This document shows positions 46,880-64,000 of a DNA stretch of 64,000 nt, piece by piece. Below the pieces are notes generated by a model. That model had not been told where the DNA came from. It saw only the letters and a list, made by a program, of their open reading frames with translations, and ran no database searches. The stretch lies in NCBI RefSeq assembly GCF_027913215.1, contig NZ_CP115784.1:1736001-1800000 (forward strand), read 5' to 3'. The stretch is from Paracoccus aerodenitrificans. GTDB taxonomy: Bacteria; Pseudomonadota; Alphaproteobacteria; Rhodobacterales; Rhodobacteraceae. A program made the position numbers and the translations under genes. Within the stretch, counting starts at the first letter, position 1. Every line of letters begins with the position of its first letter.

Positions 46880-47719
46880 ATGGACTTTAGTGATATACGT
46901 TACGATATCGCGGCGGGGATCGCGACGCTGACCCTCCATCGTCCTGAAAGGCTAAATGCTGCGCGTATAGAAACCCATGAAGAAATCCAAGCGGCACTTT
47001 CAGCCGCAGACACAGATGATGATGTCCGTGTCGTTATAGTGACGGGCGAAGGTCGAGCCTTTTGCGCTGGCACCGATATTTCGGAAGGGTTCAATCTGCC
47101 CCAAGGGGGCGACCTGAGCACCGGCGACGACATCCCCCCGGATGTGGGCGGCGTAACGGTTTTACGCCTGTATGAAATGTCCAAACCCATTATAGCGGCG
47201 ATTAATGGACCCGCTATCGGCTTTGGCGCAAGCTTTACGCTGGCAATGGATATCAGACTAGCCTCTGAAAACGCAAAATTCGCATTTCCATTTGCCCGTC
47301 GGGCAATCTGTGCTGAGAGCTGTTCAAGCTGGTTTTTGCCGCGCCTTGTAGGCATGCAGACGGCACAGGATTGGATGTTGACAGGCAGGGTATTCGGCGC
47401 AGAAGAGGCACTGTCACGTGGCTTGGTTTCAGAAGTGCTTCCGGCTAGCTCCCTTCTTTCTCGAGCCCACGCAATTGCCTCGGATATTGTCACGAACTGC
47501 GCCCCTGCCGCGCTGGCCCTGAACCGAAAATTGCTGTGGCAGATGCAGGGTGCCGCGCATCCTGCAAAAGCACATGAACTGGAAAGCTGGGGCATTGCAG
47601 CATGCCTTTCGCACTCAGACGCGGCAGAGGGTATTGCTGTATTTCGTGAAAAGCGCGCACCGCATTTTGTTGGACAGGCACATGATCATGATTTTGTTCT
47701 GCGTGTGAAAGATCAGTGA
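46880..47719 (+). CDS. Enoyl-CoA hydratase/isomerase (crotonase family)
   Basis: 279 aa from the ATG at 46880; the frame is open from inside the IS5 copy. The crotonase oxyanion-hole segments are GRAFCAGTDISEGF and INGPAIGFGASFTLAMD. FARRAICAESCSSWFLPRLVG carries the Glu of a SSWFLPR subgroup often found in propionate, bile-acid and steroid catabolism clusters. It is transcribed towards the thiolase gene, which runs the other way. Confidence 0.88.
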   Translation: MDFSDIRYDIAAGIATLTLHRPERLNAARIETHEEIQAALSAADTDDDVRVVIVTGEGRAFCAGTDISEGFNLPQGGDLSTGDDIPPDVGGVTVLRLYEMSKPIIAAINGPAIGFGASFTLAMDIRLASENAKFAFPFARRAICAESCSSWFLPRLVGMQTAQDWMLTGRVFGAEEALSRGLVSEVLPASSLLSRAHAIASDIVTNCAPAALALNRKLLWQMQGAAHPAKAHELESWGIAACLSHSDAAEGIAVFREKRAPHFVGQAHDHDFVLRVKDQ

Positions 47720-47903: not shown

Positions 47904-49067
47904 TCATGAGATGGCTTCCAATATAGTGACGTTAGCAATCCCCCCGCCTTCGCACATGGTCTGAAGCCCGTATTTCTTGCCGCGTGCATGTAGAGCATGA
48001 ATGAGAGTTGTCATCAATTTAGTGCCAGAAGCACCGAGCGGATGGCCCAGAGCAATCGCACCACCGTTCACATTCAGCTTGGCGGGGTCGGCTTTCAGCT
48101 CTTTCAGCCACGCAAGCGGTATGGAGGCGAAGGCCTCATTGACTTCGTAAAGGTCGATATCATCAATTTTCATCCCTGTTTTTTCCAATGCGCGGATAGT
48201 GGCTGGGATAGGTTCTTCGAGCATGATGACAGGATCACCCGCGGTGACAGTCAGGTTCACAATCCGGGCACTGGGCTTCAGGCCGTATTTTTTCAGTGCC
48301 GCTTCAGAGACGACGAGGACACCCGCAGCGCCGTCACAGATCTGCGACGCGTTAGCGGCAGAAATCATCCCGCCCTCCTCCAACAGTTTCACACTGCCTA
48401 TACGCTCCAACGAAGCATCCGCGCGAATTCCTTCGTCGCGCGTATGCATCCCGCCTTCGATCACAAGAGGGCAAATTTCCTTGTCAAACTCTCCTGCCTC
48501 GGTAGCGGTAAGTGCACGTTTGTGGCTTTCCAACGCGAATCTGTCGAGATCATCCCGAGTGAAGCCATACTTGCGAGCAATCATTTCCGCCCCCTTGAAC
48601 TGGCTGAAATCCCTGGTGCCGAACCTTTCTGCAATTCTATCCGAGAACGGACCGATCCCAACGCCGTTTTTCATGTGATAGGTAAGGTTGGAAAACATCG
48701 GCACACGTGTCATGCTTTCGACACCCATGGCAATGATCACATCCTGAGTGCCCGACATGACGGCCTGTGCTGCGAATTGCACTGATTGTTGGGATGAGCC
48801 GCACTGGCGATCGATAGTTACGGCTGGTACGGATTGCGGCAGATTCGAGGACAGCACACAGTTGCGACCAAATGCAAAAGCCTGTTCACCTGCCTGCGTC
48901 ACGCAGCCGACAATAACGTCGTCTATTGCAGCGGGGTCGATGCCTGAGCGGTCCACCAGTGCATTGATTACCTCGCCGCCCAACTCCGCTGGATGCCAAT
49001 CCTTTAACGCACCCTCCCGGCGACCGCCGGCTACGCGGACCGTTTCCACTATATAAGCTTCAGCCAT
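47904..49067 (-). CDS. Acetyl-CoA acyltransferase (thiolase)
   Basis: 387 aa from the ATG at 49067. The nucleophilic Cys89 is in DRQCGSSQQS, NEAFA holds the active-site Asn, GGAIALGHPLGASG the His, and QTMCEGGGIAN the second Cys. Conserved thiolase I/II layout. It starts just before the stop of the upstream enoyl-CoA hydratase region and shares its transcript. It cleaves 3-ketoacyl-CoA to acetyl- or propionyl-CoA. Confidence 0.95.
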   Translation of the reverse strand: MAEAYIVETVRVAGGRREGALKDWHPAELGGEVINALVDRSGIDPAAIDDVIVGCVTQAGEQAFAFGRNCVLSSNLPQSVPAVTIDRQCGSSQQSVQFAAQAVMSGTQDVIIAMGVESMTRVPMFSNLTYHMKNGVGIGPFSDRIAERFGTRDFSQFKGAEMIARKYGFTRDDLDRFALESHKRALTATEAGEFDKEICPLVIEGGMHTRDEGIRADASLERIGSVKLLEEGGMISAANASQICDGAAGVLVVSEAALKKYGLKPSARIVNLTVTAGDPVIMLEEPIPATIRALEKTGMKIDDIDLYEVNEAFASIPLAWLKELKADPAKLNVNGGAIALGHPLGASGTKLMTTLIHALHARGKKYGLQTMCEGGGIANVTILEAIS

Positions 49068-49068: not shown

Positions 49069-49851
49069 TTAGTTCGCCCCTTTGAAATCGGGTTCGCGGC
49101 GTGCCAAGAAGGCCGAGACACCCTCGCGACCTTCGGCACTTTCTCCGGCTGCGACGATACTTTGTAGTTCACGGTCCATCTGAGCCACGTAGCTTTCGGT
49201 CATTCCGGTATTGAGCAGCCAGCGTGCCTGACCCATAGTCTGAATCGCCCGATCCTTCAGGGTCGCCGCCAATTCCGCACCTGCGGCTGCCAGATCTCCG
49301 GAAACCATCCGAGTTGCCATGCCGAGACCGACCGCTTCCTCGGCACCGACGCGGCGATTCGAAAGTATGATGTCCTGTGCCTGCCGCAACCCGATCAAGC
49401 GTGGTAGCGTCCATGTCATGCCACCGTCCGGGGTCAGGCCAATAGCGCAATAGGCAGCGGTGAAGCTCGCTTCCGGAGCGGCAAGGACGAAATCTCCTCC
49501 TATGGCGACGCTCATCCCCGCACCTGCTGCCGGACCATTGACCAGCGTGATGAGAGGCTTCTTCATCATCGAGAACTGAGCCAGCGACTGATGCAGCGTG
49601 CCCGCAAGATGGGCTAGGAAAACGCCTATCTTATCGGAGTTTTTTGCGAAATCACCAACATCGCCACCAACGCAGAACATTCGCCCAGCGCCGGTCAATG
49701 TCACAACACGGATATCTGGATCATGCCCAACCTTTAGCGCGACTTCGAGCAGCGCGTCGGCCATCGGCTGGTTGAAGGCATTCCCTGACTCGGGACGGTT
49801 CAGCGTGATCCGTGCCACGCCCTCTGCTTCTTCGTAAAGAATTTCGTTCAT
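49069..49851 (-). CDS. Enoyl-CoA hydratase/isomerase (PaaG-like)
   Basis: 260 aa from the ATG at 49851, which has GGAGG at seven bases upstream; the frame is open to 49911. Crotonase motifs are GRMFCVGGDVGDF and VNGPAAGAGMSVAIGGDF. The loop AIGLTPDGGMTWTLPRLIG has Asp where hydratases use Glu, as in PaaG-type isomerases, so double-bond isomerisation is likely. It precedes the thiolase by one base. Confidence 0.9.
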   Translation of the reverse strand: MNEILYEEAEGVARITLNRPESGNAFNQPMADALLEVALKVGHDPDIRVVTLTGAGRMFCVGGDVGDFAKNSDKIGVFLAHLAGTLHQSLAQFSMMKKPLITLVNGPAAGAGMSVAIGGDFVLAAPEASFTAAYCAIGLTPDGGMTWTLPRLIGLRQAQDIILSNRRVGAEEAVGLGMATRMVSGDLAAAGAELAATLKDRAIQTMGQARWLLNTGMTESYVAQMDRELQSIVAAGESAEGREGVSAFLARREPDFKGAN

Positions 49852-50061
49852 TTGCATGCCTCCATGTTTGCCAGGTATCGTTTCACCAGCCTCTCTGGCA
49901 GCGTCCTTCAACTCGGCGGTGAGCTCATCGGCAGGTCCGTGACAGGCACGGCGCAGGTCTCGTTAATAGGGTGCGACGGCATTACGCACAAAGGCTTCAC
50001 TTTTCCGGCAGTCGACAAGGCGCGGGTGCTCATGCCGCTATTATATTACCGAAGGAGAAGC

Positions 50062-50823
50062 TCATTTTGGAGCCATCCGGATCGCCCCGTCCAGGCGAAT
50101 CGTCTCACCATTCAACATTACATTCTCGACAATAGAACCAACCATCTGGGCAAATTCCGATGGATCGCCCAAGCGCGGCGGAAAGGGAACCTGACGGCCA
50201 AGACTATCCTGCGCCTCTTGCGGCAGGCTGGCCATCAGAGGCGTCAGAAAAAGCCCCGGCGCGATTGTCATGACACGAATACCGTAGCGAGCGAACTCGC
50301 GTGCTATCGGAAGGGTCATGCCAACGATCCCGCCCTTGGAAGCTGCATAGGCTGCTTGGCCGATCTGACCATCAAAGGCTGCAACCGACGCGGTGTTGAT
50401 GATGACACCACGCTCCTCGCCCAGAGGATCGGCAGTGTGCAGAGCAGCGGCGAATTTAGAAAGCACATTAAACGAACCAAATAAGTTCACGTTCACGATC
50501 GAGCTAAAGTCCTGCAATGCAATTGCGTTTCCCTCCCGATCGATGACTTTCTTGGGCGGACCAATGCCGGCACAGTTCACCAGAATTCGCGCCTTACCAT
50601 GGAGCCGTTCGGCCTCACCGATTGCAGCCTCTATCTCGCTTTCGTCTGTAACATCAGCCTTGATGAACTTGCCGCCGACCTCTTTGGCCTTCGCCTCGCC
50701 GAGTTCAGCATTCAGATCGAAAATAGCGACCTTCGCGCCGGCCTTGGCCAATAGGTCCACTGTAGCACCGCCAAGACCCGAAGATCCTCCCGTAACGATT
50801 GCCGCTTGTCCATCGATTTTCAT
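50062..50823 (-). CDS. 3-hydroxyacyl-CoA dehydrogenase, SDR type (HSD17B10-like)
   Basis: 253 aa short-chain dehydrogenase. The NAD motif is VTGGSSGLGGATVDLLAK, then FDLNAELGEA with Asp for NAD preference, NCAGIGPPKKV, and the catalytic Ser and YAASK in TASVAAFDGQIGQAAYAASKGG. The closest group is type II 3-hydroxyacyl-CoA dehydrogenases, which also act on 3-hydroxy-2-methylbutyryl-CoA. It is upstream of the hydratase and thiolase on the same strand (210 bp gap). Confidence 0.9.
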   Translation of the reverse strand: MKIDGQAAIVTGGSSGLGGATVDLLAKAGAKVAIFDLNAELGEAKAKEVGGKFIKADVTDESEIEAAIGEAERLHGKARILVNCAGIGPPKKVIDREGNAIALQDFSSIVNVNLFGSFNVLSKFAAALHTADPLGEERGVIINTASVAAFDGQIGQAAYAASKGGIVGMTLPIAREFARYGIRVMTIAPGLFLTPLMASLPQEAQDSLGRQVPFPPRLGDPSEFAQMVGSIVENVMLNGETIRLDGAIRMAPK

Positions 50824-50865: not shown

Positions 50866-51294
50866 TCAGTACTCGTCTCTCAACTTGCGCCTAATCAACT
50901 TACCACTTGGTGCGCCGGGAAACTCGTCGCAAAAATCAACGTTCTTCGGAGCTCCGACCTTGGATAGCCGCTCGCGGCAATAGTTGTTCAAATCTTGCGC
51001 CTGTTCAGACATCTCTCCAACGTCGGCTTCCAACTGCACCACGGACTTTATCCCCTCACCCATCTCTTCACATGGTATGCTGAACAGTGCACATCTGCCA
51101 CATCCGGATGCGTAATTAGCAGGTTTTGGTTTCCTGCAGATACACTTTACACCGTCCGAGAAGATCGGGTGGGAAACGCGGTCGGTAAGGAAGAGAAAAC
51201 TTTCTTTGTTGACATATCCAACATTGCCAAAAGTCGAACAGTCCGGCGGCAGATAAGCTTTCGCTATTTTTTCCGGATCATGGCGGTACAACAC
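50866..51294 (-). pseudogene. Acyl-CoA synthetase relic (C-terminal part)
   Basis: A readable 142-aa stretch matches the C-terminal third of an AMP-forming acyl-CoA synthetase: YRHDPEKIAKAYLPPD, GYVNKESFLFLTDR and ending FPGAPSGKLIRRKLRDEY. In the middle the frame is wrong, but a shifted reading gives NLLITHPDVADV, the expected sequence, so at least two frameshifts are present. The N-terminal AMP-binding part is absent. It shows the locus once held a second synthetase. Confidence 0.85.
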
Positions 51295-51566: not shown

Positions 51567-52715
51567 ATGTCACGCCCTCCCCTTTCTGGCATCCGCATTA
51601 TCGAACTTTCTGGAATTGGCCCCGGCCCTTTCGCCGCAATGATGCTGGCCGATCATGGCGCCGAGGTCATACGGGTCGAACGCATTGGCTCTGGCAAAGC
51701 AGGTCCTGAAGTGCCTCCTGATAAGGACATATTGCTGCGATCTCGCAAAACGATAGAAATGGATCTCAAGAAGCCAGCGTCACGGGAAATAATGCTGGAC
51801 CTGGTGAAAAATGCCGATGGGCTGATTGAAGGGTTCCGTCCCGGAGTGATAGAGCGCCTAGGTATAGGTCCTGAAATCTTATTGGACAAAAATCCGAAAC
51901 TGGTCATCGGTCGCATGACAGGCTGGGGACAGACCGGGACGATGTCGGAAATGGCCGGACATGACCTGAACTATATCGCTATTTCAGGTGCGTTGCATGG
52001 CGTTGGTCGCAAAGGCGGAAAGCCGGTTGTCCCTCTGAACCTATTCGGGGATTTCGGCGGTGGCGGAATGTTTATGGCATTCGGGATGCTGGCCGCACTG
52101 CACCACGCCAAGGCAACCGGGCAGGGTCAGGTCATTGACGTTGCGATGACAGACGGCTCGGCCTTATTGACCGCGATGATACACTGTTTCCGCCAAGTTG
52201 GCATCTGGCAGGACGAAAGGGGTGTCAATTTGCTGGATGGCGGTGCGCATTTCTATGATACCTACGAAACGAAAGACGGAAAATACATTTCAATAGGTGC
52301 CATCGAACCACAATTCTATGCCCGCCTGCTGGAACTGCTCGGGCTGAAAGAAGATCCCGTATATACGCGTCAAATGGACGCTGGAAATTGGGACGTGATG
52401 CGGCAGGGCCTGGAACGGATATTTCTCACTCGTACGCGCGACGAATGGGACAAGATTTTCATTGGCTCAGACGCCTGCTATGCTCCGGTTCTGTCTTTGG
52501 AAGAGGCGGCCCAACATCCACACAACGCCTCTCGTAAGACCTTCCAGACAATCAAAAGTACCCTCCAGCCATCGCCTGCGCCACGCTACTCTGTCAGTCC
52601 TACCGTGCAACCTGAAATGTTCAATAACGTGCTGGACACAGATACCTTGCTCGCAAGTATCGGATACTCGGAGGACCGTATACGCGCCTTGCGAAGAGAG
52701 CGCGTAATAAGCTGA
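51567..52715 (+). CDS. CaiB/BaiF CoA-transferase family protein (AMACR-like)
   Basis: 382 aa from the ATG at 51567. The family III fold features are SGIRIIELSGIGPGPFAAMMLADHGAEVIRVE and GFRPGVIERLGIGPE. The segment GHDLNYIAISGALHGVG corresponds to the catalytic His region of alpha-methylacyl-CoA racemase, so racemisation of 2-methylacyl-CoA is favoured over CoA transfer. It is alone on the plus strand between minus-strand catabolic genes. Confidence 0.88.
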   Translation: MSRPPLSGIRIIELSGIGPGPFAAMMLADHGAEVIRVERIGSGKAGPEVPPDKDILLRSRKTIEMDLKKPASREIMLDLVKNADGLIEGFRPGVIERLGIGPEILLDKNPKLVIGRMTGWGQTGTMSEMAGHDLNYIAISGALHGVGRKGGKPVVPLNLFGDFGGGGMFMAFGMLAALHHAKATGQGQVIDVAMTDGSALLTAMIHCFRQVGIWQDERGVNLLDGGAHFYDTYETKDGKYISIGAIEPQFYARLLELLGLKEDPVYTRQMDAGNWDVMRQGLERIFLTRTRDEWDKIFIGSDACYAPVLSLEEAAQHPHNASRKTFQTIKSTLQPSPAPRYSVSPTVQPEMFNNVLDTDTLLASIGYSEDRIRALRRERVIS

Positions 52716-52816: not shown

Positions 52817-53821
52817 TCATATCGTCACGACAACCTTACCCATAACCCCGCGAGTTGACAGCATGTCGATTGCCTCCGCACCCTGTTCAAGCGGTAACCG
52901 CGAGTGGATTCGAGGGCGAATTCGACCCTCTCGGTAAAGAGCCAACAATTCGCTGACGGCACGTGCGTGGCCCTCCGGGTCGTGTTCAATATGTGACCCC
53001 CAGAAGACCCCTCGGACATCGCACTCCTTCAAAAGTGGCAAATTAAAAGGCAACGACGGAATTCCTGCAGGAAAGCCGATGATCAGATACCGCCCACCAC
53101 GCGCAATTGCTCGCAACGCTGGCTCGGCATAGCTGCCTCCGACCGGATCATAGATGACATTTGCTCCGGGGTTGCCCGCCAGTTCGCGAATTTTCCTCGA
53201 GAAAGCACGCTGTGTATTTTTGTCGAGTACACCCGCCGGATAGAGAAGCGTTTCCGCCGCTCCAGCCTCCCGCGCAGCAGCGAGCTTTTCTTCGGATGAG
53301 GCAGCCGCAATCACCTTTGCACCGATCGCCGCACCAAGTTCGACCGCCGCAAGTCCGACACCACCGGCAGCTCCAAGAACAAGCAGCGTCTCACCGGCCT
53401 TTAATTGTGCACGGTCACGTAGTGCATGCCATGACGTACCGTAAGTCATGAGGAAAGCTGCTGCCTCATCCATTGGCATCTCATCTGGAATGGCAAAACA
53501 CTTTTCGGCAGGCAGTATGATCTTTTCAGACATCCCGCCCCAGCCTGACATCGCAATGACGCGCGTACCGATCACTGGCTCTTCGACGCCGTCCCCAAGT
53601 GCTGCCACAATGCCGGACACTTCTGCACCGGGCGAAAAGGGGCGCTCAGGCCGATATTGATATTTGTCCTCAATGATCAGCAGATCGGGATAATTCACAC
53701 CTACCGCCTGAACATTCAACAATATCTCGCCCGCTCCGGGTACGGGTACCTCGATTTCACGAAGTTCAAGGGTGTCGGTTCCGCCCGGAACTACGCTCTG
53801 CACAGCGCGCATCAATGCCAT
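52817..53821 (-). CDS. NADPH:quinone oxidoreductase-like MDR enzyme
   Basis: 334 aa medium-chain reductase without structural zinc. The N-terminus MRAVQSVVPGGTDTLELREIEVP, GVNYPDLLIIEDKYQ, the nucleotide loop LVLGAAGGVGLAAVELG and the C-terminal GVMGKVVVTI are family hallmarks. It may reduce an enoyl-CoA or quinone; the substrate is not predictable. It is 45 bp downstream of the MaoC gene on the same strand. Confidence 0.88.
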   Translation of the reverse strand: MALMRAVQSVVPGGTDTLELREIEVPVPGAGEILLNVQAVGVNYPDLLIIEDKYQYRPERPFSPGAEVSGIVAALGDGVEEPVIGTRVIAMSGWGGMSEKIILPAEKCFAIPDEMPMDEAAAFLMTYGTSWHALRDRAQLKAGETLLVLGAAGGVGLAAVELGAAIGAKVIAAASSEEKLAAAREAGAAETLLYPAGVLDKNTQRAFSRKIRELAGNPGANVIYDPVGGSYAEPALRAIARGGRYLIIGFPAGIPSLPFNLPLLKECDVRGVFWGSHIEHDPEGHARAVSELLALYREGRIRPRIHSRLPLEQGAEAIDMLSTRGVMGKVVVTI

Positions 53822-53866: not shown

Positions 53867-54739
53867 TCAATCATGAAAAAAGCGCATCTCTCCGTTATCA
53901 ATCACGACCCGATCCGCGACACGCGCCCGAAAAAAGCAACCTTGGCCCTGCATCCACAGATCAATTTCCAGTATCTCACCCGGAAAAACTGGCGCGGTGA
54001 AGCGACAATCCATCATCTTGATTCGTTTGCTGCGCTGCTCGGCCAGTATTTTTCTTGCGACATGCCCATAGCTGCAAAGGCCGTGCAGAATAGGCTTAGA
54101 AAATCCGGCTCTTCCGGCGAAATCCGGATCAATATGCAACGGATTATTATCCCCCAGTAGTCGATAGAATGCAGCAGCGCGCGGTGAGGTCGGAGTGACA
54201 AGCACCTGATCCGGTAACCCTGATGGTAATTCCAGCTTGGGCGGGGCCGGAAGCACCCTGGCACCCAAACCGCCATCGGCGCGCGCAAAGGCACTCTGCG
54301 TGACAATCGCGATGCACTTGCCAGTTGCTACATCCCTGATCTCACGACGGCTGACGATCAACGCGCCGCGACCTTTTCCCTTATCGTAAATAGCCGTGAT
54401 CGTGGGTTTGGCTGTCACGTGACCCGAAACCGGTAGATCCTGATCCAGCTCAATTCGCTCTGAGGCGTGCACAACATGCAAGGCATCTATATCAAATGAA
54501 GGATCGGCGTAGAAGTTACCCGGATAGGCAAGTACTGTTGCCATCGTGGGCAGCGCTAGCAATCGCTCTTCCCAGACAAGATCAAGGTCATCTGCCGCTG
54601 CACCGCATGCCAGAGCATAAAGAATCGTGTCACGCTTATCAAAGCGATGTTCGGTGGTGGGAAAGTCATGTGACAGAAGCCGGTCATAACGTGCAAAATC
54701 ATCTGCGGTGCCATGTCCGTTTTGTGTGGCATCTTGCAT
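53867..54739 (-). CDS. MaoC-like dehydratase (enoyl-CoA hydratase 2 type)
   Basis: 290 aa from the ATG at 54739. It has two hot-dog halves. The C-terminal half contains YRLLGDNNPLHIDPDFA, the hydratase-2 motif with the catalytic Asp/His pair, and PILHGLCSYGHVAR; the N-terminal half begins DTILYALACGAAADDLDLV. This is the layout of peroxisomal (R)-specific hydratase 2. It follows the GntR gene by 21 bp, so these form an operon with the quinone oxidoreductase. Confidence 0.9.
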   Translation of the reverse strand: MQDATQNGHGTADDFARYDRLLSHDFPTTEHRFDKRDTILYALACGAAADDLDLVWEERLLALPTMATVLAYPGNFYADPSFDIDALHVVHASERIELDQDLPVSGHVTAKPTITAIYDKGKGRGALIVSRREIRDVATGKCIAIVTQSAFARADGGLGARVLPAPPKLELPSGLPDQVLVTPTSPRAAAFYRLLGDNNPLHIDPDFAGRAGFSKPILHGLCSYGHVARKILAEQRSKRIKMMDCRFTAPVFPGEILEIDLWMQGQGCFFRARVADRVVIDNGEMRFFHD

Positions 54740-54760: not shown

Positions 54761-55489
54761 CTATTTTTGCTCGATACAGTCGTCAAGTAACCGGCCGGCC
54801 ATCTCCCATCCCCTCTTCAAATCCGCGATATGGCGCGCCATCCACTCACGGGCTTTTTCGGAGTCGCGGGCGCTCAACGCATCGACAACCTCCCGATGTG
54901 CGACGAGATTGCGGTGCGGTGCTTGTTTCAGGATTCTTCCAATTTCAAGATAAGGCTTGAACAGCAAGCGGCCGATAGGCTCGCGGCTCAGAACCAGAGC
55001 ACGGTTGCCGGTAAACTTGGCAAGCATTGCATGAAACTCGGTATCAAGCCCATCTGTCGGCGTACCCGCCGCAATCGCTGATTCCGTATCAGCAAGATTT
55101 TTTTCCAAGATATGGATCTGATCGTCGGTTATTCGCTGCGCGGCGAGCGCTGCCGATAGCGGCTCCAATGCATTCGCGACCTCCCAAAGTTCGCGAAACC
55201 GCACGGCGTGAAGCAAAAGTGCACGCTCCATACGGACTGACATATGCTGTTGATCGGGAATGGTGATCAGCAAACGTCTCCGGCCAACACGCCGCAGAAG
55301 CCCTTCGCTTTCAAGCTGCCTAATTCCCTCGCGAAGTGTAGATCGATTGACGCCAAAGCGATCCGCAAGCTCTGTTTCTGCGGGAAGCTGATCGCCAGGC
55401 TTCAGTATTCCTTCGAGGATGAGGCGCTGAAGTTCGTCAGATACCACCTGATAGGCCGGAGAGACTTGCAGCTTCGTGATTTCATCCAT
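54761..55489 (-). CDS. FadR-subfamily GntR transcriptional regulator
   Basis: 242 aa. The N-terminal winged helix has GILKPGDQLPAETELADRFGVNRSTLREGIRQLESEGLL, and the C-terminal all-helical FCD ligand domain starts near residue 95 with FRELWEVANALEPLSAALAA. The FCD metal/ligand residues include Asp and His in LDTEFHAMLAKFTGNRAL. It is probably the local regulator of the acyl-CoA cluster. A 14-bp palindrome, CCGAACGAGTTCGG, lies 45 bp upstream. Confidence 0.93.
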   Translation of the reverse strand: MDEITKLQVSPAYQVVSDELQRLILEGILKPGDQLPAETELADRFGVNRSTLREGIRQLESEGLLRRVGRRRLLITIPDQQHMSVRMERALLLHAVRFRELWEVANALEPLSAALAAQRITDDQIHILEKNLADTESAIAAGTPTDGLDTEFHAMLAKFTGNRALVLSREPIGRLLFKPYLEIGRILKQAPHRNLVAHREVVDALSARDSEKAREWMARHIADLKRGWEMAGRLLDDCIEQK

Positions 55490-55580: not shown

Positions 55581-56129
55581 TCAGCCTTCCCCTGTCAGTG
55601 GGTCTGACATAGAAGCTGGCGCGGGACCTCGGCCTGCGAAATAGAGGATATGCCGGCAAATCTGCCAGATCGTTTCAATCGCCATTAGCCCGATAGCAAG
55701 AGGAACCATCATGATGAATGGCCAGACAGGAAAGTAACCCGAGCCCAGTTGCATTGTTCGTCCTGTCTGCAGGCTGGTGATCGAATATCGCAGCATATAC
55801 CACAACAGAAAAAGGAAGATCACCAGTTCAACAACAAGCATCAGAACGCCGACAACCGAGCGGATCGGGACAGACATCATTGCAGTGAACGCTTCAAGTC
55901 GAGGAAAAAACGCTTCACGATGAGCCAGTGGGAGTCCCCAGAATACCACGAGGGGAAACAGCATGCGTTCAATAATATTATAGGCGCCGGGTATCAGGTC
56001 CATGTGCAGCGCATAACGCCCGAAAACAGACAGAACAGTGATCATCATGATAACGAACAGGCAGATACCAGCCCCGATAGCGGCAAGGCCAAACTCGAAT
56101 CTGCCAAGCGCTTGATAGGCTTTCCTCAT
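55581..56129 (-). CDS. dctQ: TRAP transporter small permease DctQ
   Basis: 182 aa from the ATG at 56129 with GAGGAG upstream; the long frame before it is not coding. Four hydrophobic helices, with ITVLSVFGRYALHMDLIPGAYNIIERMLFPLVVFWGLPLAHREAFF split around the second, match the DctQ domain. It partners DctM, encoded 20 bp upstream on the same strand. Confidence 0.92.
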   Translation of the reverse strand: MRKAYQALGRFEFGLAAIGAGICLFVIMMITVLSVFGRYALHMDLIPGAYNIIERMLFPLVVFWGLPLAHREAFFPRLEAFTAMMSVPIRSVVGVLMLVVELVIFLFLLWYMLRYSITSLQTGRTMQLGSGYFPVWPFIMMVPLAIGLMAIETIWQICRHILYFAGRGPAPASMSDPLTGEG

Positions 56130-56149
56130 GATCTCAACTCCTCTTGCAC

Positions 56150-57460
56150 TTATCTGACATGGCTTGGCAGCCAGGTGACGATTCCGGGAAAGAAGATCGT
56201 GGCACTGATAACGATCACGGCTGCAGCGAATGCAAATTTCGTCGCGGGCCGGAAGACTTCGACAACCGGATATCTCTGCGCGGCAGCCGCTGCATAGGCT
56301 GATAACCCAACAGGAGGAGTTAACAACCCGAGCGAGATCATAAAGCCAGCAAGCACGCCAAACCACAGCAGATCAATTTGAGCGGCTTCTAATATAGGTA
56401 ATATGATCGGTACGATCAGCAGGATCACGGCGGCACTTTCAAGGATCATACCGGCGAGAAACAGAACGATCATCAGTATCGCGACCAACAGACCCGGCTG
56501 ATCGACAAAGGGCTCTGCCAGTTCAAGAAGTTCGCGTGGTATCCGCGAAAAGGCCAGGAACCGTGCGAAAATCTGGGCGCCGATCACGATGAACATCAGC
56601 ATCGCGGAGATTTTGACACTTTCATTCAGCGCATGCGCCAGATCGCGCAGATTGATCCGGCGCATCAGCATCAAGCCGACAAGTGCGGTGAACGCACCGA
56701 TCGCACCAGCTTCACCCACTGTGATCACACCGCCATAAATACCCCCGAACACTACCAGCATCAGCGCGATCAGGAAAAGCGATGCGGCCAAAGCGCCGCG
56801 TTCGAGTTGCTCTGGCTCGGCGGCTTGGATTTCTGCCATCTTCAAAGCTTCGGGATTCAGTTCTTCGAAAACAGCGAGGCAGCCAATATAAACCAGAAGG
56901 CACAACATTCCCGGACCGATCAGCCCGATGAATAATTGTCCAATCGGGACAGAGGTGATCGCACCATAAATAATGACGATCAGGCTTGGAGGAATAACCG
57001 CCGATAAAGACCCTGCAACGGCTGACAAACCAATGGCGAAGCGACGAGAGTACCCGACGCGCTCCAACTCGGGTGCTGACAAGGTTGCAAGCGAAGCAGC
57101 AGATGCAGCGCCTGAACCCGAAACAGCACCCAGAAGTCCGCCAATGACCAAAGTGGCCACTCCAAGCGGATATCTCCGGTAACCTGCAAGCCTGTGACCC
57201 ACCCGGAACAGGTCAAGGACCAGCCCGCCCCGCATCAATAACTGCGCCATCAGAAGATAAAGGGGAATGATCGAGAGAGAGTAGTTCGAGGCGGTATAGA
57301 ACACATCCTGTCCGACAATACCGTCCAGCACGCGCGGGCCAGTCCAGAGCAATATGCCGACGATACCGGTACCGAACAGTACAGTCGCAACATGTTGCCC
57401 CAGAAATAGGAAGAAGCAGAACCACCCGACGACGATCATGATGATAAGATCGTGTGACAT
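56150..57460 (-). CDS. dctM: TRAP transporter large permease DctM
   Basis: 436 aa from the ATG at 57460 with GGAG seven bases upstream. About 12 helices; GAVSGSGAASAASLATLSAPEL near residue 100 and GLLTPPVGLSAYAAAAAQ near the C-terminus are DctM signature loops. It carries the substrate with Na+ or H+. It is 99 bp downstream of dctP, with a hairpin in the gap. Confidence 0.94.
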   Translation of the reverse strand: MSHDLIIMIVVGWFCFFLFLGQHVATVLFGTGIVGILLWTGPRVLDGIVGQDVFYTASNYSLSIIPLYLLMAQLLMRGGLVLDLFRVGHRLAGYRRYPLGVATLVIGGLLGAVSGSGAASAASLATLSAPELERVGYSRRFAIGLSAVAGSLSAVIPPSLIVIIYGAITSVPIGQLFIGLIGPGMLCLLVYIGCLAVFEELNPEALKMAEIQAAEPEQLERGALAASLFLIALMLVVFGGIYGGVITVGEAGAIGAFTALVGLMLMRRINLRDLAHALNESVKISAMLMFIVIGAQIFARFLAFSRIPRELLELAEPFVDQPGLLVAILMIVLFLAGMILESAAVILLIVPIILPILEAAQIDLLWFGVLAGFMISLGLLTPPVGLSAYAAAAAQRYPVVEVFRPATKFAFAAAVIVISATIFFPGIVTWLPSHVR

Positions 57461-57548: not shown

Positions 57549-57559
57549 CGAGAGATTTT

Positions 57560-58654
57560 TTATTCGCTAACAAGCAACTCTTCGACGCCTTGGGGCAATT
57601 CGGCACCTTCGGCCTGAACCAGCTCTGCCCAGAGTTGTGCCGTTGCCCGACCAGGGAGGCCAGCTTCTTCGGTCTGCTCAATCCACCGCCGCCAGGTTGC
57701 GGTGGATGCACTTTCTATCGCTGAGCGCAGACCCTCAGGAATAGCGGCCACATCGACGAATTTAATTCCTGCAGCCGCTGCCTCTTCAGCAACCTCTACG
57801 TCCTGCGCGTCGATCAGCTCGGCGTTTTCAATTGCAATATCACGTGCAGTCTGATCCCAGATTTCCTTTTGCTCATCAGAAAGCTGCTGCCATGCACTAT
57901 CCGAAATCGCAATATAGCTGCCCCAGTGACCGACCGCCACGCCGGTAATAGAATAGGTCAGGACATCCTGCAGCGAATAAGACCGCCAGTCCGCGACAGA
58001 AAGAATCGTCCCTTCGACAGTGCCGCGGGAAAGCGCCTCATAAGAAGCCGAACTGGGCATGGTTACGGGCGTCGATCCCAGCTCTTCAAGAAAAATCGTA
58101 TGAAGCGCAGAGCCTGCCCGCAGCGGCATGCCGTTGAGATCCTCGGCACTTTCAGGTTCGACGCCCGCAAAATTGATCGCATATGCAGAGGTTGTGCCGA
58201 CCGGCCAGGCATGAATACCTTTCGGCTCGATCTCGTATTCATAGAAGGTCTTGCCATCCGCCAGTTCGACATCTGAGTCCATCAGCTTCAGGAAAGCATT
58301 CGTTTCAATCAGTGAGGTTGTCCCCAGCGTCGGCAACTGGGTCACGTCGGAGAGCGGAAAAGTCCCTTCGTGATAGGGCGCAAGCAATGGCGCGGCCACA
58401 TCGATGGAACCGCCTTGCAGCCCGTCCAGTTCACGACCGACCGAGGTAATCTCACCTGCGTAAAACCTGGTAAAACTGATATCTCCGTCTGTTCGTTCCT
58501 CAATCGCATCAGCAAACAGGTTCATATGCTTGCCGACCCAGAAGTGAACCTCTGGCAGCGAGGCTGCGATGATGAGGTTGGCGTCAGCTTTACTGACTGT
58601 TGGAGCCGATGCAGCAAGTGCGCCCACAAATACGAATTTTGTCAGATTTGTCAT
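57560..58654 (-). CDS. dctP: TRAP transporter substrate-binding protein DctP
   Basis: 364 aa with a signal peptide (MTNLTKFVFVGALAASAPTVSKA). The mature domain has IAASLPEVHFWVGKHMNLFADAIEER at the start, and GMPLRAGSALHTIFLEELGSTPV with the conserved Arg that binds the carboxylate. It captures an organic acid for DctQM. Position next to CoA ligase, dehydrogenase and kinase genes implies that the imported acid is the substrate they degrade. Confidence 0.94.
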   Translation of the reverse strand: MTNLTKFVFVGALAASAPTVSKADANLIIAASLPEVHFWVGKHMNLFADAIEERTDGDISFTRFYAGEITSVGRELDGLQGGSIDVAAPLLAPYHEGTFPLSDVTQLPTLGTTSLIETNAFLKLMDSDVELADGKTFYEYEIEPKGIHAWPVGTTSAYAINFAGVEPESAEDLNGMPLRAGSALHTIFLEELGSTPVTMPSSASYEALSRGTVEGTILSVADWRSYSLQDVLTYSITGVAVGHWGSYIAISDSAWQQLSDEQKEIWDQTARDIAIENAELIDAQDVEVAEEAAAAGIKFVDVAAIPEGLRSAIESASTATWRRWIEQTEEAGLPGRATAQLWAELVQAEGAELPQGVEELLVSE

Positions 58655-58731
58655 TGTTCCTCCCGGTTTTCATATTCTGTTAAGACAGCCATCCTCATGG
58701 GCGATGCCCAATTGTCAGCGTTTCGGATAGT

Positions 58732-60306
58732 TCATGGTGCCGCGTTAAGCAGCGAGTCGCGCAACAACTTCTTGTCAACCTTGCCGTTGGCGTTTCTCGG
58801 CAAAGGGTTCTGCCAGAGATCGAGGGTTTCGGGCACCTTGTAATCAGACAGCCGGGCACTACACCATTCGCGCAGCGTGACGGCATCTATTGCGGATCGG
58901 ATCGTTACCACGGCATGCACGCGCTCACCAAGAACCGGGCATGGTTTGGCAATCGCTGCCGCCTCAACAACAGCCGGATGATCTGTCAGAACGTTTTCCA
59001 GCTCCGCCGAATAAACTTTTAGACCGCCGCGATTGATCATGTCCTTTGCCCGGTCGAGCACGCGGACAAAACCGTCCTCATCCATCACGCCGATATCGCC
59101 CGAATGCCAAAAGCCTGCGGTGAAGGACGCAGCCGTCGCCTCGGGATTGTTCCAGTAACCGCGAACGACATTGGGACCCCTAAGCCAGATCTCACCGGTT
59201 GACCCATGGGGTAGCTCCCTGCCGTTTTCGTCCATAATCCGCGCTTCAGTACCCGGAAGTGCGCAGCCGACAAATTCGCGCTTTTCATATGCATATTGGC
59301 GAGGGGTCACGAGTTGCGCGAGAATGGTTTCGGTTGAACCATAGCAATTTGCGAATGACAGTGCCGGAATAGCTTCTGCCAAACGTCGAATTGTAGGTTC
59401 GGGCATTGGAGCACCGCCATAAGCTGCAAGCCTCCATGTTCCGAGATCCCGATCAGCAAAATCCGGCTGTAGCAGGCACAGATTATACATTGCTGGAACC
59501 ATCAGAGTGTAAGTCATCCGCTCGACTTCTGCGAGATCAAGAAATGCTGCGGCTTTGAACGCTTCCATCAGGATGACAGTCGCGCTGCCGTGCATAGGTC
59601 CTGCTATAAGCGCGGCAATTCCAGTCACATGACTCAACGGCACGGCAGAGATGACACGATCTTCCGGCTGAAAGCCCATGATAGTCTGATAATATACTCC
59701 CGCATGAATCAGACCTAAATGAGTCAGCATGGCGCCTTTGGGCTTTCCGGTCGTACCCGACGTATAGAGGACTAGCGCGACCTCCTCTTCCCTCGATATC
59801 TCATCCGGGTCGGAAAGAGTGCCCTCACCGTCCAGATCTGGAAATGCAATCAAACGGCCATCGGACGTAATTACGGCCTCTGAACTGCGTGCTGTCAGGT
59901 CCCGGTCACAGACCAAAAGCTCCGCACCACAATTGCTAAGCATGAAGGCGATTTCCGGTACGCTGGCCCGAACTGACACCGGAACCCCAACCGCACCAAG
60001 ACGGAACAGACCGAACAGCATGGCAATAAAATCAATCGAGTTGCCCATGAGTATGCCAACCCTGTCGCCCTTTCGGACGCCTTGCGCGGACAGGGCAAGC
60101 GCCACACGCTCTGATTCTGCGAGAAAGTTTCTCCAACTCACGCGGCGTGTACCCGATACATAGGCCTCACCATTGGGGTTGCGGGCCACCGCGTCAGAAA
60201 GAAACTGCCAAAGATGTTGCGGGCGATCAGAAAAGCACTCAACAACCCGGTCATTGTAATGTGCCTCGGCTCTGCGTTCAGGAAATACTCCGCTGTCCCA
60301 GCTCAT
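58732..60306 (-). CDS. AMP-forming acyl-CoA synthetase
   Basis: 524 aa from the ATG at 60306; the frame is open to 60432. The P-loop-like motif YTSGTTGKPKGAM, the A5-type YGSTET, A7 GFWHSGDIG, A8 FVRVLDRAKDMINRGGLKVYSAELE and the C-terminal catalytic Lys in NANGKVDKKLLRD are all in order. It activates a carboxylic acid to its CoA thioester. It lies between dctP and the acyl-CoA dehydrogenase on the same strand, so uptake and activation are co-located. Confidence 0.95.
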   Translation of the reverse strand: MSWDSGVFPERRAEAHYNDRVVECFSDRPQHLWQFLSDAVARNPNGEAYVSGTRRVSWRNFLAESERVALALSAQGVRKGDRVGILMGNSIDFIAMLFGLFRLGAVGVPVSVRASVPEIAFMLSNCGAELLVCDRDLTARSSEAVITSDGRLIAFPDLDGEGTLSDPDEISREEEVALVLYTSGTTGKPKGAMLTHLGLIHAGVYYQTIMGFQPEDRVISAVPLSHVTGIAALIAGPMHGSATVILMEAFKAAAFLDLAEVERMTYTLMVPAMYNLCLLQPDFADRDLGTWRLAAYGGAPMPEPTIRRLAEAIPALSFANCYGSTETILAQLVTPRQYAYEKREFVGCALPGTEARIMDENGRELPHGSTGEIWLRGPNVVRGYWNNPEATAASFTAGFWHSGDIGVMDEDGFVRVLDRAKDMINRGGLKVYSAELENVLTDHPAVVEAAAIAKPCPVLGERVHAVVTIRSAIDAVTLREWCSARLSDYKVPETLDLWQNPLPRNANGKVDKKLLRDSLLNAAP

Positions 60307-60385
60307 TCCGGATTTCCTCCCATTTTCACCTGCGTCCCCTCTCGCAGTTATCCCGCCGCCAGCCTCCACGCAGACGGATATGAAT

Positions 60386-61636
60386 CTACTCGGCAGCGCT
60401 CGGCAAAACACCACGAGCCTCAAGTCGTGCACGTGCCTGCTTCAGTTCGTTCCGAGCGATACCGCGCAGGTGTACTTCATCTGGCCCGTCAATGAAGCGT
60501 AAGGCCCGCCCCCATGTCCAAAGGAAAGAAAGCGGCGTATCAGGCGTGATGCCGCACGCTCCGTAAACCTGCATTGCACGGTCCAGGACCTCTGTCTGCA
60601 GCCGCGCCGCCGCGACCTTTATTTCGGACACGAGGACCTGCGCCGCCTTATTGCCCTGATTATCCATCAGCCAGCTTGTATAAAGGTTCAGCAATCGCGC
60701 CTGATCTATCCCGATACGAGACTGTGCAATCCAGTCACGGATATTCGAGTAATCTGCCAGATCCTTTCCGAATGTGCGCCGGGTCAATGCACGTTCGCAC
60801 ATCAGGTCCAGAGCAAGCTCGCATTGCCCGATAGTTCGCATGCAGTGATGGATGCGTCCGGGCCCAAGCCGGGCCTGAGCAACCGCAAAGCCAGCACCCT
60901 CATCACCGAGCAGATTGCTGACAGGCACACGGACATCTTTGAACTCGACTTCGCAATGCCCTTCGGGAGCGTGATGATGCATGATCGGAACATCGCGGAC
61001 GATACGAAAACCAGGTATGTTTGCCGGCACAATCACGAAACTATGCCGCGAATGGCGCGGTGCATCCGGGCGGGAATCCGATATACCCATGACGAGCGTG
61101 AATGCGAATTTTGGGTGTAGCGCACCGGTGGTAAACCATTTGCGTCCGTTGATCACATATTCATCACCATCACGTTCGATTGTCGTCTGAAGGTTGGTCG
61201 GATCTGAAGAGGCCTGATCCGGCTCAGTGATAGATACTGCAGACCTGATTTTGCCCTCAAGCAACGGCAAAAGCCAGCGTTCCCGTTGTTCCGGCGTTGC
61301 GAAAAGATGCAGTATTTCCATATTTCCGGTATCTGGGGCATTACAATTGAAGACCTCTGAAGCCCAAGGCAGTTTGCCCATGATTTCGGCCAATGGCGCG
61401 TATTCGAGATTTGTCAGCGCTGTCCCAGGCTCATCCGGCTTCAACGCCGGAAGGAACAGATTCCACAGACCCTCTGCTTTCGCCCTCTCTTTCAGGCCAT
61501 CTACCAACTTTTCGGGATATGAACCGTCGTCCGCAATACGCCGGTAATCCTCATCTGCAGGCCAAACATGCTTATCCATGAACTCTTGAAGCTGCGCCTG
61601 AAGTTTTTTCATTTTGGGCGTATATTCAAAATCCAT
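60386..61636 (-). CDS. Acyl-CoA dehydrogenase, ACAD10/ACAD11-like
   Basis: 416 aa. The FAD-binding and middle domains are intact (AVSITEPDQASSDPTNL, WFTTGAL). The C-terminus has YGACGITPDTPLSF and RFIDGPDEVHLRGIARNEL; DGPDEVHL is diagnostic of the ACAD10/11 and LvaC-type branch. Members of this branch are known to release phosphate from 4-phospho-acyl-CoA, producing an enoyl-CoA. The kinase needed for that step is the next gene upstream, 24 bp away. The ordinary alpha-beta dehydrogenase role is a less likely alternative. Confidence 0.93.
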   Translation of the reverse strand: MDFEYTPKMKKLQAQLQEFMDKHVWPADEDYRRIADDGSYPEKLVDGLKERAKAEGLWNLFLPALKPDEPGTALTNLEYAPLAEIMGKLPWASEVFNCNAPDTGNMEILHLFATPEQRERWLLPLLEGKIRSAVSITEPDQASSDPTNLQTTIERDGDEYVINGRKWFTTGALHPKFAFTLVMGISDSRPDAPRHSRHSFVIVPANIPGFRIVRDVPIMHHHAPEGHCEVEFKDVRVPVSNLLGDEGAGFAVAQARLGPGRIHHCMRTIGQCELALDLMCERALTRRTFGKDLADYSNIRDWIAQSRIGIDQARLLNLYTSWLMDNQGNKAAQVLVSEIKVAAARLQTEVLDRAMQVYGACGITPDTPLSFLWTWGRALRFIDGPDEVHLRGIARNELKQARARLEARGVLPSAAE

Positions 61637-61660
61637 CTCGATTCCTCCCCATATCCCAGA

Positions 61661-62689
61661 TCAGGCGATCAACGCAGCGCCGCGTGCAGCGAGTGCCGGC
61701 GCCAACCGTCCAACTTCCGCCGCATCCTTTGATGAAGCGTTCCCCTGCCGCGCCCGACTGGCAATACCTTCAAAAATTACGGCGTTTCGGAACAGGGCAA
61801 GCACAAGATAGAAGCGTGACAGCTTTCCATCGTCACCAGAAGCCGCAAAATATTGTGAGACGAATTCATCCATATCTGGCAGACCATCGCCGGCAACGTC
61901 ACGATCCAGTAGGCCGCGACTATATTCATCTGAACGCATGAACCACGTATAGATGCAACTATGAGCAAGATCTGCCATTGGGTGTCCTAACGTCGAAAGC
62001 TCCCAATCAAGCACGGCAACGATGCGTGGTTCGTCAGGGTGGAACATGACATTGCCCAGCCTAAAATCTCCATGAACCAGCGTGTTCCGTTCGTCGTCCG
62101 GCATATTATTGGGCAGCCAGTTGATCAGAGCATTAATGTCGTTATTGGGCGCCGTCGATGATAACTCCCATTGCCTGGTCCAGCGACCGACCTGTCTCTC
62201 GGCAAAACCACCCGGCTTGCCAAAACCGGTCAGCCCTGCTTCCTTGATATCAATCTTATGAATTTCGGCCAGCATGCTGGCAATGGCATCGAAATATGCA
62301 CGACGTTCTTTGACTGGAATTTCAGGCAGCCCATTATCATGAAAAACCCGCCCTTCGACCCTCTCCATCAAATAGAACTGGGTGCCGATCACGCTTTCAT
62401 CTTCACAAAACGCGACCATCCTCGGCACAGAGACCGCCGAAGCGGCGAGTGCCTCTTGGACCCGATACTCCCGATCAACTGCATGCGCTGACGGCAGCAA
62501 TTTACCTGGCGGCCGCTTTCTCAGTACCAGATGACGGTCATTTGTCTCCAGAAAGAATGTAGGATTGGATTGACCACCACTTATCTGGTGCAATGCGATG
62601 TCAGGACCAACGCCGTCGACGCGCGGCACCATCCAGTCGAGCAACGAGGCGACATCAATCTCGGTCGATTGGCGGGCAGTGGCAATCAT
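61661..62689 (-). CDS. APH-type phosphotransferase (ACAD10/11 kinase domain, LvaA-like)
   Basis: 342 aa from the ATG at 62689; the frame is open to 62740. The kinase-like fold shows VLRKRPPG (ATP Lys58), the catalytic HGDFRLGN (His206-Asp208) and the metal-binding DWELSTLGHP (Asp228). It is homologous to the kinase half of ACAD10/ACAD11 and to LvaA, which phosphorylate 4-hydroxyacyl-CoA. Together with the adjacent dehydrogenase it forms the two-protein version of the fused enzyme. A FadR-consensus site precedes the start. Confidence 0.92.
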   Translation of the reverse strand: MIATARQSTEIDVASLLDWMVPRVDGVGPDIALHQISGGQSNPTFFLETNDRHLVLRKRPPGKLLPSAHAVDREYRVQEALAASAVSVPRMVAFCEDESVIGTQFYLMERVEGRVFHDNGLPEIPVKERRAYFDAIASMLAEIHKIDIKEAGLTGFGKPGGFAERQVGRWTRQWELSSTAPNNDINALINWLPNNMPDDERNTLVHGDFRLGNVMFHPDEPRIVAVLDWELSTLGHPMADLAHSCIYTWFMRSDEYSRGLLDRDVAGDGLPDMDEFVSQYFAASGDDGKLSRFYLVLALFRNAVIFEGIASRARQGNASSKDAAEVGRLAPALAARGAALIA

Positions 62690-62705
62690 GATTCTATCCG
62701 CATGT

Positions 62706-62716
62706 TTGTCCGACAA
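62706..62716. promoter_or_regulatory. FadR-type GntR operator candidate
   Basis: TTGTCCGACAA is a perfect 11-bp palindrome and fits TNGTNNNACNA, the consensus of FadR-subfamily GntR proteins, at every defined position. It lies 17-27 bp before the kinase start, at the head of the kinase-dehydrogenase-synthetase-TRAP gene set. The gene at 54761 encodes such a regulator. Confidence 0.55.
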
Positions 62717-62754
62717 GCCAACGGTTGAGCATTTTATCACTTAGGTCAATCTCT

Positions 62755-63420
62755 AATTTGGTTCTATCGCAAACCGATCAGCACGACACAGGTCGTTGAT
62801 AAGTGTCCAGGCTTCAGGCAGCCAGTCTACAGACTGCTGAAAGGGACGTAGCTCCGGCCTCAGCTGACCCTTTTGGATCATGTTGGCGAATTCAATCCGA
62901 CCGAAGGTCGAAACGATCGATGTGAAGCTCTTGAAGCAGAGCATGGTCCTCAACCGATGCTTGATAAAGCGATAATCCTGCTAAACAAATTGTTTAGGCA
63001 CTTGACCCTCACTATCCAGATCGGAATCGGGCATCCAAACCGTTTAAGCATGCGATTGATCTCGGTGATGCGCGCTGAATTTGCGCCTATTTTGTCGATG
63101 ACGATCTTGCAGTGCAGGCCGTTGTCCTCGAGCGCCCGGGCGAAGAACCTGCTGACAGCCGGCTTGTTCCGGTGCAGGGAGAGCATGAAATCCAGAGTTT
63201 TCCGTGTTTGTTGACGGCCCAGTACAGGTAAACCCACTGCCTCTTAACCCTGCTTAGGTCTCGTCTATGCGTCAGTATCTGTCGGTCGATCTTTTACGCC
63301 GGCACGAATCTTCCGTGATCAGCCCAGCATAGCGTTCCACACAGCGGCTCAGCGTCGCATGATCAACCGTGACGCCTCAATCGGCCATGATCTCCTCAAG
63401 GTCGCGGTATGACAGTGGAG
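62755..63420 (-). pseudogene. IS6-family transposase remnant
   Basis: Minus-strand fragments in several frames match an IS6-type DDE transposase. In order they are SYRDLEEIMAD followed by a stop, GVTVDHATLSRCVERYA, a broken DET region, then KTLDFMLSLHRNKPAVSRFFARAL, KIVIDKIGANSARITEINRML and LCFKSFTSIVSTFGRIEFANMIQKGQL. Stops and frameshifts make it non-functional. Confidence 0.85.
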
Positions 63421-63556
63421 CTTGGCAAGGTAGCAAAAACGCAAGAGGCAACTCCGGCCCCGATCCTGCCCTCTTGACCAATTCGCGGCACTGGCAGCAT
63501 AGGGAAGTGGCTATGAAGGAGCTAGCCTTGCCGAAAGGAAAGTTTGCGACAGATCC
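62760..63556 (-). mobile_element. Decayed IS6-family element
   Basis: About 797 bp bounded by GGTTCTATCGCAAA (62760-62773) and TTTGCGACAGATCC (63543-63556), imperfect inverted copies of an IS6-type terminal repeat. It contains only the broken transposase. No 8-bp target duplication is evident. It borders the catabolic cluster on the right. Confidence 0.8.
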
Positions 63557-63592
63557 GAGACCGAGGCTTCGTCGCAGACGGTAAGGCTATTC

Positions 63593-64000
63593 TCACAAGC
63601 CTGCCCCAGTCCAGTCCATCGGCGCGAACAGCGTAGAGCGTATTACCTCCATAAAGTTCGGAGGGTCAGCACCGCGTTCAAGATTGCTCGCCAGCAAAAC
63701 CAGCCAGGTCAGCAGCGCAAGGCAGATCGAATACGAAATGAAATAGAGCAGACGCATGACAACTGATACGGATAAACGAAGCATTAGAAGCCCCGGGGCA
63801 ACGAAACCGACAAATATCCAGACAAAAACACCGAACCCGAGGACTGCATGCCGGATATTGGAGAGATCTTGATCAACCAGGCTGGCAGAGAACTGGTCGA
63901 GCACGGGCTCATAAGGGCTGATAAAGATGAACAATGTCATGATCAGCGCCAGATACATCAGAAGATCGCCAATGATTACAAAGTGAATGCTGCAGGTCCC
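63593..64000 (-). CDS. Membrane protein of unknown family (5' end outside window)
   Basis: The frame has no stop up to the right edge. An ATG at 63958 gives 121 aa, but it has no clear ribosome-binding site and the upstream codons IHFVIIGDLL extend the first hydrophobic segment, so the gene probably starts beyond the window. Three to four transmembrane stretches are seen (LALIMTLFIFI, GVFVWIFVGFVAPGLLML, LLYFISYSICLALLTWLVLLA). I do not recognise the family. Confidence 0.6.
   Translation of the reverse strand, partial: GTCSIHFVIIGDLLMYLALIMTLFIFISPYEPVLDQFSASLVDQDLSNIRHAVLGFGVFVWIFVGFVAPGLLMLRLSVSVVMRLLYFISYSICLALLTWLVLLASNLERGADPPNFMEVIRSTLFAPMDWTGAGL

Follow-up and report, generated by a model that had tools for sequence, protein, structure and literature searches.

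A split ACAD10/11-type kinase–dehydrogenase pair in a gene cluster of Paracoccus aerodenitrificans likely to serve 4-hydroxy acid degradation

A 64,000-nucleotide stretch of the Paracoccus aerodenitrificans genome (NZ_CP115784.1, positions 1,736,001 to 1,800,000; hereafter the window, whose own numbering is used unless another locus is named) carries, side by side, genes for an APH-fold kinase and an acyl-CoA dehydrogenase. A preliminary description, made from the letters alone, had compared them with ACAD10/ACAD11 and with LvaA/LvaC of levulinate catabolism. Our analysis makes it likely that they are part of a cluster, gained by horizontal transfer, for the breakdown of a 4-hydroxy acid, probably a methyl-branched one, that would be imported, activated with CoA, phosphorylated at C4, stripped of its phosphate by elimination and degraded by beta-oxidation. 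Every reaction, and the substrate with its 4-hydroxy position, chain length and branching, is predicted from sequence, the two central steps through homology to assayed enzymes. The two genes are as follows.

61661..62689, minus strand: APH-fold kinase of the ACAD10/11 kinase-domain type, 342 aa (Pfam APH, solved-structure matches, tree)
60386..61636, minus strand: ACAD10/11-type acyl-CoA dehydrogenase, 416 aa (solved-structure matches, tree, residues)

Both genes are intact and separated by 24 bases, which bears out the adjacency first described; they form two open reading frames (ORFs), not an ACAD10/11-like fusion. Among solved structures, the dehydrogenase, which carries the DGPDEVHL signature, is closest to human ACAD11 (2wbi, 3e-112), mouse ACAD11 (8v3u, 2.4e-111) and 4hr3 (4.6e-111), the next relative, 1ukw, matching at only 1.4e-35. 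The kinase matches Pfam APH at 5.5e-56 and, among solved structures, 3dxp (3.7e-86), the mouse ACAD11 kinase domain (6.2e-76) and then 9o56 (1.9e-49). The excerpted text of Rashan et al. (2025, PMC12440821) names D220, N225, R86 and R176 in the kinase part of ACAD11 and R626, H634, R637 and D753 in its dehydrogenase part, and has the phosphate-pocket residues modelled with a C4 phosphate. According to an alignment and a script, R256, H264, R267 and D383 of the window dehydrogenase correspond to the latter four, so that the protein has both the catalytic Asp instead of Glu and the Arg/His/Arg phosphate pocket. The kinase, which groups with the ACAD11 kinase domain, retains HGD...N (the equivalents of Asp220 and Asn225), the helix C Arg-Glu and an Arg equivalent to R176; as regards the residue printed as R86, a count along the chain puts the Arg beside the helix-C Glu at residue 84. 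Of the 140 rows of our dehydrogenase tree, 127 have RRHRD at the five positions checked; the remaining 13 comprise two that end before the last of these positions and 11 that fall outside the family. According to excerpts of PMC11342911, both domains of ACAD10 could be replaced in vitro by their bacterial relatives. Taken together, the sequence comparisons support a pair of the same kind as ACAD10/11, split over two genes as had been suggested, and homology supports the kinase/dehydrogenase mechanism. The families and the published ACAD11 residues are thus common to the window and to mammals; the differences lie in the two genes, in an identity to ACAD11 of 45%, in the placement in a sister clade and, for ACAD10, in a reported HAD domain of which the window pair has none.

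The trees, obtained by quick searches with SH-aLRT support only, agree with this placement. The dehydrogenase tree comprises 140 of the 172 collected rows (rows matching fewer than 300 query residues were excluded at collection, and 26 Pseudomonas loci and six duplicate loci were left out), with human ACAD11, mouse ACAD11 and 4hr3 as references. The window dehydrogenase falls in a 44-row clade (support 100), proteobacterial as far as its rows are named. ACAD11 of human and mouse falls in another clade, of 60 rows (97), along with 4hr3, the common Pseudomonas copy and the eight copies that were found in genus-mates. In this tree the window clade is the sister of the clade holding mammalian ACAD11; no grouping with ordinary short-chain acyl-CoA dehydrogenases was seen. 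Identity to mouse ACAD11 is 42–53% (median 46%) inside the 44-row clade, and 99 of the 118 other full-length rows, counting the 26 Pseudomonas loci outside the tree, exceed 50%. Since LvaC is reported, in excerpts of PMC11342911, to be 56% identical to ACAD11 (and 62% to ACAD10), as compared with 45% for the window protein, LvaC more likely belongs in the other clade, with ACAD11; indirectly, these identities speak against close orthology of the window dehydrogenase to LvaC.

The kinase tree, from which five duplicate or redundant loci and matches covering fewer than 230 model positions were left out, assigns the window kinase to a group of nine rows (support 91), one of them the same gene read a second time; the loci of this group also stand near the window in the dehydrogenase tree. 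We compared distance matrices for the 57 loci, the window among them, that have a single kinase; 44 of these are adjacent pairs and 15 belong to the window's clade. Kinase and dehydrogenase distances correlated with r values of 0.632 for the 57 loci, 0.728 for the 44 adjacent pairs and 0.926 for the 15 clade members; none of 5000 permutations, which ignore host kinship, reached any of the three values. Because the two sets of distances run in parallel, we read kinase and dehydrogenase as a co-inherited pair. The genome holds a single ACAD10/11-type dehydrogenase (E 1e-80) and three APH-family genes (E 0.001).

The surroundings of the pair contain all the neighbours that had been named, namely a TRAP importer, an acyl-CoA synthetase, hydratases, a short-chain dehydrogenase/reductase (SDR), a thiolase and AMACR-like and hydratase-2-like genes.

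58732..60306, minus strand: AMP-forming acyl-CoA synthetase, 524 aa (similarity and profile searches; relatives in other clusters)
57560..58654, minus strand: TRAP importer binding protein DctP (similarity and profile; 53% relative in L154)
56150..57460, minus strand: TRAP large permease DctM (62% identical to the large permease annotated in L154)
55581..56129, minus strand: TRAP small permease DctQ (52% identical to the small permease annotated in L154)
54761..55489, minus strand: GntR/FadR-type (FCD) regulator (44–47% to annotated FCD, FadR or GntR regulators of L034, L155, L156 and L188; similarity only, no profile)
53867..54739, minus strand: MaoC-type hydratase 2, like that of multifunctional enzyme 2 (MFE-2) (57% to L034)
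52817..53821, minus strand: quinone oxidoreductase-like (MDR) reductase (55% to L034)
51567..52715, plus strand: alpha-methylacyl-CoA racemase, AMACR/MCR type (E-values against racemases and CoA-transferases)
50866..51294, minus strand: C-terminal remnant of another acyl-CoA synthetase (between SDR and racemase)
50062..50823, minus strand: SDR, type II 3-hydroxyacyl-CoA dehydrogenase (HSD17B10) kind (87% to L155)
49069..49857, minus strand: crotonase-fold hydratase/isomerase (similarity and profile)
47904..49067, minus strand: acetyl-CoA acyltransferase, thiolase (85% to L155)
46880..47719, plus strand: second crotonase-fold hydratase (50–51% to annotated hydratases of L155/L156)

On the minus strand, the order of transcription is kinase, dehydrogenase, synthetase, DctP, DctM, DctQ, regulator, MaoC hydratase and quinone-oxidoreductase-like gene. 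In the synthetase remnant, which the preliminary description had passed over, the AMP-binding C-terminal domain is the only recognisable part. In agreement with the preliminary description, no LvaB-like partner is visible: no ORF of at least 100 aa lies between kinase and dehydrogenase or directly beside them on the same strand, LvaB being a protein of 12 kDa.

A full route from import to acetyl-CoA, as had been proposed, is plausible as a prediction from these genes. The substrate would be a 4-hydroxy acid, available free, from a gamma-lactone, or by shortening of a longer acid hydroxylated at an even position. The TRAP importer would bring in the acid, the synthetase would form the CoA thioester and the kinase would phosphorylate the C4 hydroxyl. 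The dehydrogenase would then expel the phosphate to leave a 2-enoyl-CoA, with Asp383 as the base, FAD as a transient hydride carrier and the Arg/His/Arg pocket holding the phosphate, so that the step would involve no net oxidation. A crotonase or hydratase 2, followed by the HSD17B10-type dehydrogenase and the thiolase, would complete beta-oxidation. The racemase would set the configuration of an alpha-methyl group, and at least one intermediate would therefore probably be 2-methyl-branched.

The calls on which the branching rests hold up. The gene at 51567–52715 matches alpha-methylacyl-CoA racemases at 1e-110, as against 8e-36 for CoA-transferases, so much more strongly that a family III CoA-transferase was rejected. 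It carries the AGHD and GDFGGG motifs and is a member of the AMACR/MCR family by this measure; we take these motifs to hold the catalytic His and Asp. Its peculiarity as compared with known AMACR/MCR racemases is its position inside a kinase/dehydrogenase cluster. The MaoC gene matches hydratase 2 of the peroxisomal multifunctional enzyme 2, and the SDR matches type II 3-hydroxyacyl-CoA dehydrogenases. Racemases, hydratases 2 and HSD17B10-type SDRs of these kinds serve 2-methyl-branched acyl-CoAs.

Related clusters elsewhere share much of this gene set. The best match is on the Salipiger abyssi plasmid pPABY1 (L034), which has seven gene types in common with the window at 45–78% identity: SDR 78% (over a 99-residue piece, the gene being cut by the stretch), thiolase 68%, dehydrogenase 66%, MaoC hydratase 57%, quinone oxidoreductase 55%, kinase 47% and GntR regulator 45%. 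It differs from the window in a Baeyer-Villiger-type flavin enzyme, whose best NCBIfam match is pentalenolactone D synthase, far under the cut-off, in a synthetase from another subfamily (34%), and in showing no TRAP importer or racemase match within the 29 kb read. Two Pseudosulfitobacter plasmids (L155/L156) have the SDR (87%), thiolase (85%), crotonase (50–51%), regulator (44–46%) and kinase (43%), together with a TRAP importer, a synthetase and a dehydrogenase of a second lineage considered below. A Sulfitobacter alexandrii plasmid (L154) holds the sole relative above 50% (53%) of the TRAP binding protein among 15 plasmid records. There the binding-protein gene is followed by those of both permeases. 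These TRAP genes, which also adjoin an AtuA/biotin-carboxylase set, are followed at 18906–23270 by a kinase (27% to that of the window), a 157-aa gene, a synthetase and an RRHRD dehydrogenase. Even with the threshold set at E 10, Pfam gave no match for the 157-aa protein, a possible LvaB-like partner. In Afifella (L041), a relative of the racemase (51–53%) adjoins a kinase/dehydrogenase pair. Synthetase and dehydrogenase of the window type stand in one cluster in Thalassovita and Polaromonas; more widely, synthetase relatives at 44–50% cluster with an RRHRD dehydrogenase at L044, L049, L188, L189, L191, L192 and L194, and occur without one at L190, L193, L195, L198 and L201. With the synthetase as bait, five of nine plasmid records examined, out of 21, had an RRHRD dehydrogenase nearby, four of these also a kinase. 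In a control with a different synthetase subfamily, none of the three loci examined (L157, L196, L197) had a pocket dehydrogenase or kinase; this control is small and non-random, coming from 12 of 76 records with the Pseudosulfitobacter, Salipiger and Halococcus rows left out, and two of the rows left out, L156 and L034, are themselves kinase clusters. Among the matches listed from a search of the open-licence PMC literature, no title dealt with such a bacterial cluster. A histidine-phosphatase-family gene was seen near ACAD10/11-type kinases at L036, L039, L050, L052, L053 and L128; such a gene near the kinase is also reported for the Pseudomonas citronellolis levulinate cluster.

Several observations weigh against a dedicated 4-hydroxy acid cluster as outlined above. 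The shared ancestry of the hosts may account in part for the parallel distances of kinase and dehydrogenase, and in the window clade 29 of 44 rows lack a kinase in the flank examined (1.5 kb for some). Strict pairing is also at odds with the 67 of 119 dehydrogenase loci without a kinase in the flank examined, which was 1.5 kb for many (the 119 include three places twice, L005/L121, L006/L122 and L007/L123); in 11 genomes searched whole, a kinase match at 1e-10 or better was found in all 11, in six of them at 32–35% identity only. Four of the nine synthetase-bait records and one Paracoccus genus-mate copy lack both dehydrogenase and kinase, which makes the synthetase alone a weak marker. The racemase lies on the strand opposite to the pair and might serve another route, because the genome has four other genes of the CoA-transferase-III/racemase family. 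The SDR has close relatives in many places, 77 plasmid records among them at E 1e-90. Finally, methylmalonyl-CoA mutase (TIGR00641) was not found in the genome; since a methylisocitrate lyase is encoded, above the profile cut-off, and the mutase was not found, propionyl-CoA could leave by the methylcitrate route.

A cluster of this composition may alternatively be a variant of the lva operon, degrading straight-chain levulinate or 4-hydroxyvalerate with the racemase as a bystander. We regard this as rather unlikely, though it is the most serious of the rival readings. The enzyme kinds are the same as LvaA, LvaC, LvaE and LvaD in the excerpted description of the lva operon (PMC6692424); in Pseudomonas putida, too, kinase and dehydrogenase are split and clustered with an acyl-CoA synthetase and an SDR. 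The want of an lvaB-sized gene beside the window pair counts against the levulinate reading but does not exclude activity, because the same excerpts put a levulinate cluster without lvaB on record. They describe a cation/acetate-type symporter where the window has a TRAP importer, and racemase and hydratase 2 lie outside the lva set described there; the window also differs in its thiolase. Moreover, the window SDR is of the 3-hydroxyacyl-CoA dehydrogenase kind rather than a proven 4-keto reductase, and the lower identity of the dehydrogenase to ACAD11 than that reported for LvaC points the same way. No locus recognisable as lva was found among the best 80 of at least 589 relatives, or in the flanks of 30 Pseudomonas loci. 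DUF6285 proteins stay unproven as LvaB candidates, the kinases paired with them being only about 30% identical, and no paper on DUF6285 was found in the open-licence PMC literature.

It is less probable still that the pair removes a hydroxyl elsewhere, tertiary or at C5/C6, from an acid derived from a terpenoid, a sterol or a cyclic ketone. Baeyer-Villiger-type monooxygenase genes in the related clusters L034, L191 and L192 would fit this, as would the AtuA/biotin-carboxylase set beside the closest TRAP relative. However, the pocket residues modelled with a C4 phosphate in ACAD11 are all retained, the Salipiger monooxygenase has no relative in the genome at E 1e-20, and L198 has a similar monooxygenase gene close to a synthetase of the window type but with neither kinase nor pocket dehydrogenase. 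Excerpts of PMC11342911 describe a comparison of 4-, 5- and 6-hydroxyhexanoate in ACAD10 knockouts. As neither an APH-fold kinase nor an acyl-CoA dehydrogenase is a rarity, an ordinary fatty-acid beta-oxidation cluster could in principle have come to lie beside an unrelated APH-family kinase. We consider this highly improbable and rejected it in view of family placement, residue signature and parallel distances.

As for the origin of the proposed 4-hydroxy acid cluster, eight of about 90 genus-mates have any ACAD10/11-type dehydrogenase at 1e-80, none of them in the window's clade, and the GC content of the cluster is 54.2%, as compared with 60.0% for window positions 1–30000. Two copies of an insertion sequence, of which the chromosome has at least 32 that are nearly full-length (40 of 71 candidates scored), flank the cluster in opposite orientation (C5 1781900–1782720, plus strand, which was the search query, and 1803721–1804502, minus strand), the former covering at least window positions 45939–46720. 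Antiporter-like and glutamate-decarboxylase-like genes, named by eye, also lie between the two copies, and a degenerate transposase-like stretch was seen by eye upstream of the kinase at about 62800–63400. The second crotonase ORF and the glutamate-decarboxylase-like ORF begin with the same 24 residues, encoded at window 46712–46783 and L152 6159–6230; this common stretch is apparently DNA of the insertion-sequence end.

The second dehydrogenase lineage is 31–33% identical to the window protein and has the same five residues R/R/H/R/D. Its members lie at:

L155, 18219–19409
L156, 16257–17420
L189, 15372–16547
L191, 6701–7885
L192, 6672–7856
L194, 6657–7841
L188, 10660–11856

A kinase stands beside the dehydrogenase at all of these except L188, that is, on the two Pseudosulfitobacter plasmids and in Blastomonas (L189), two Sphingobium and Novosphingobium; on a Comamonadaceae plasmid the flank of the dehydrogenase lacks a kinase. 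The motifs RLSPARLxHCMRW and YDGPTEVHK stand in the three copies that were read out (L155, L188, L189). In the dehydrogenase tree, two Pseudosulfitobacter and one Pseudomonas profundi sequence, the three on which the placement of this lineage rests, form the sister group to the rest of the ACAD10/11 family. It is tempting to speculate, though we would put it only tentatively, that the window encodes a pathway devoted to 4-hydroxy acids with an alpha-methyl branch, or to their gamma-lactones, joining racemase and hydratase 2 to phosphorylation–elimination, and that the module is wider than known: sphingomonads and roseobacters would use a second lineage (about 32%) with the same pocket and kinase family, in some cases alongside Baeyer-Villiger-type enzymes that make the hydroxy acids from cyclic ketones. 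In the excerpted literature, the chemistry of mammalian ACAD10/11 was not assigned until 2024–2025, and levulinate catabolism is the one bacterial pathway worked out. With its genes for import, activation, racemisation and beta-oxidation, a cluster such as this may help to find the natural substrates on which the chemistry acts. A second lineage that has the same pocket would make the family broader and supply test proteins for the hydride-shuttle mechanism.

Rfam gave zero matches at the gathering score over window positions 46000–64000, and promoter and terminator matches were no commoner than in shuffled sequence. Elsewhere in the window, at 40696–41907, an ORF that by eye resembles a DNA cytosine methyltransferase, with a GGFPCQDIS motif, lies among insertion sequences, and the ORF upstream of it may be its restriction partner.

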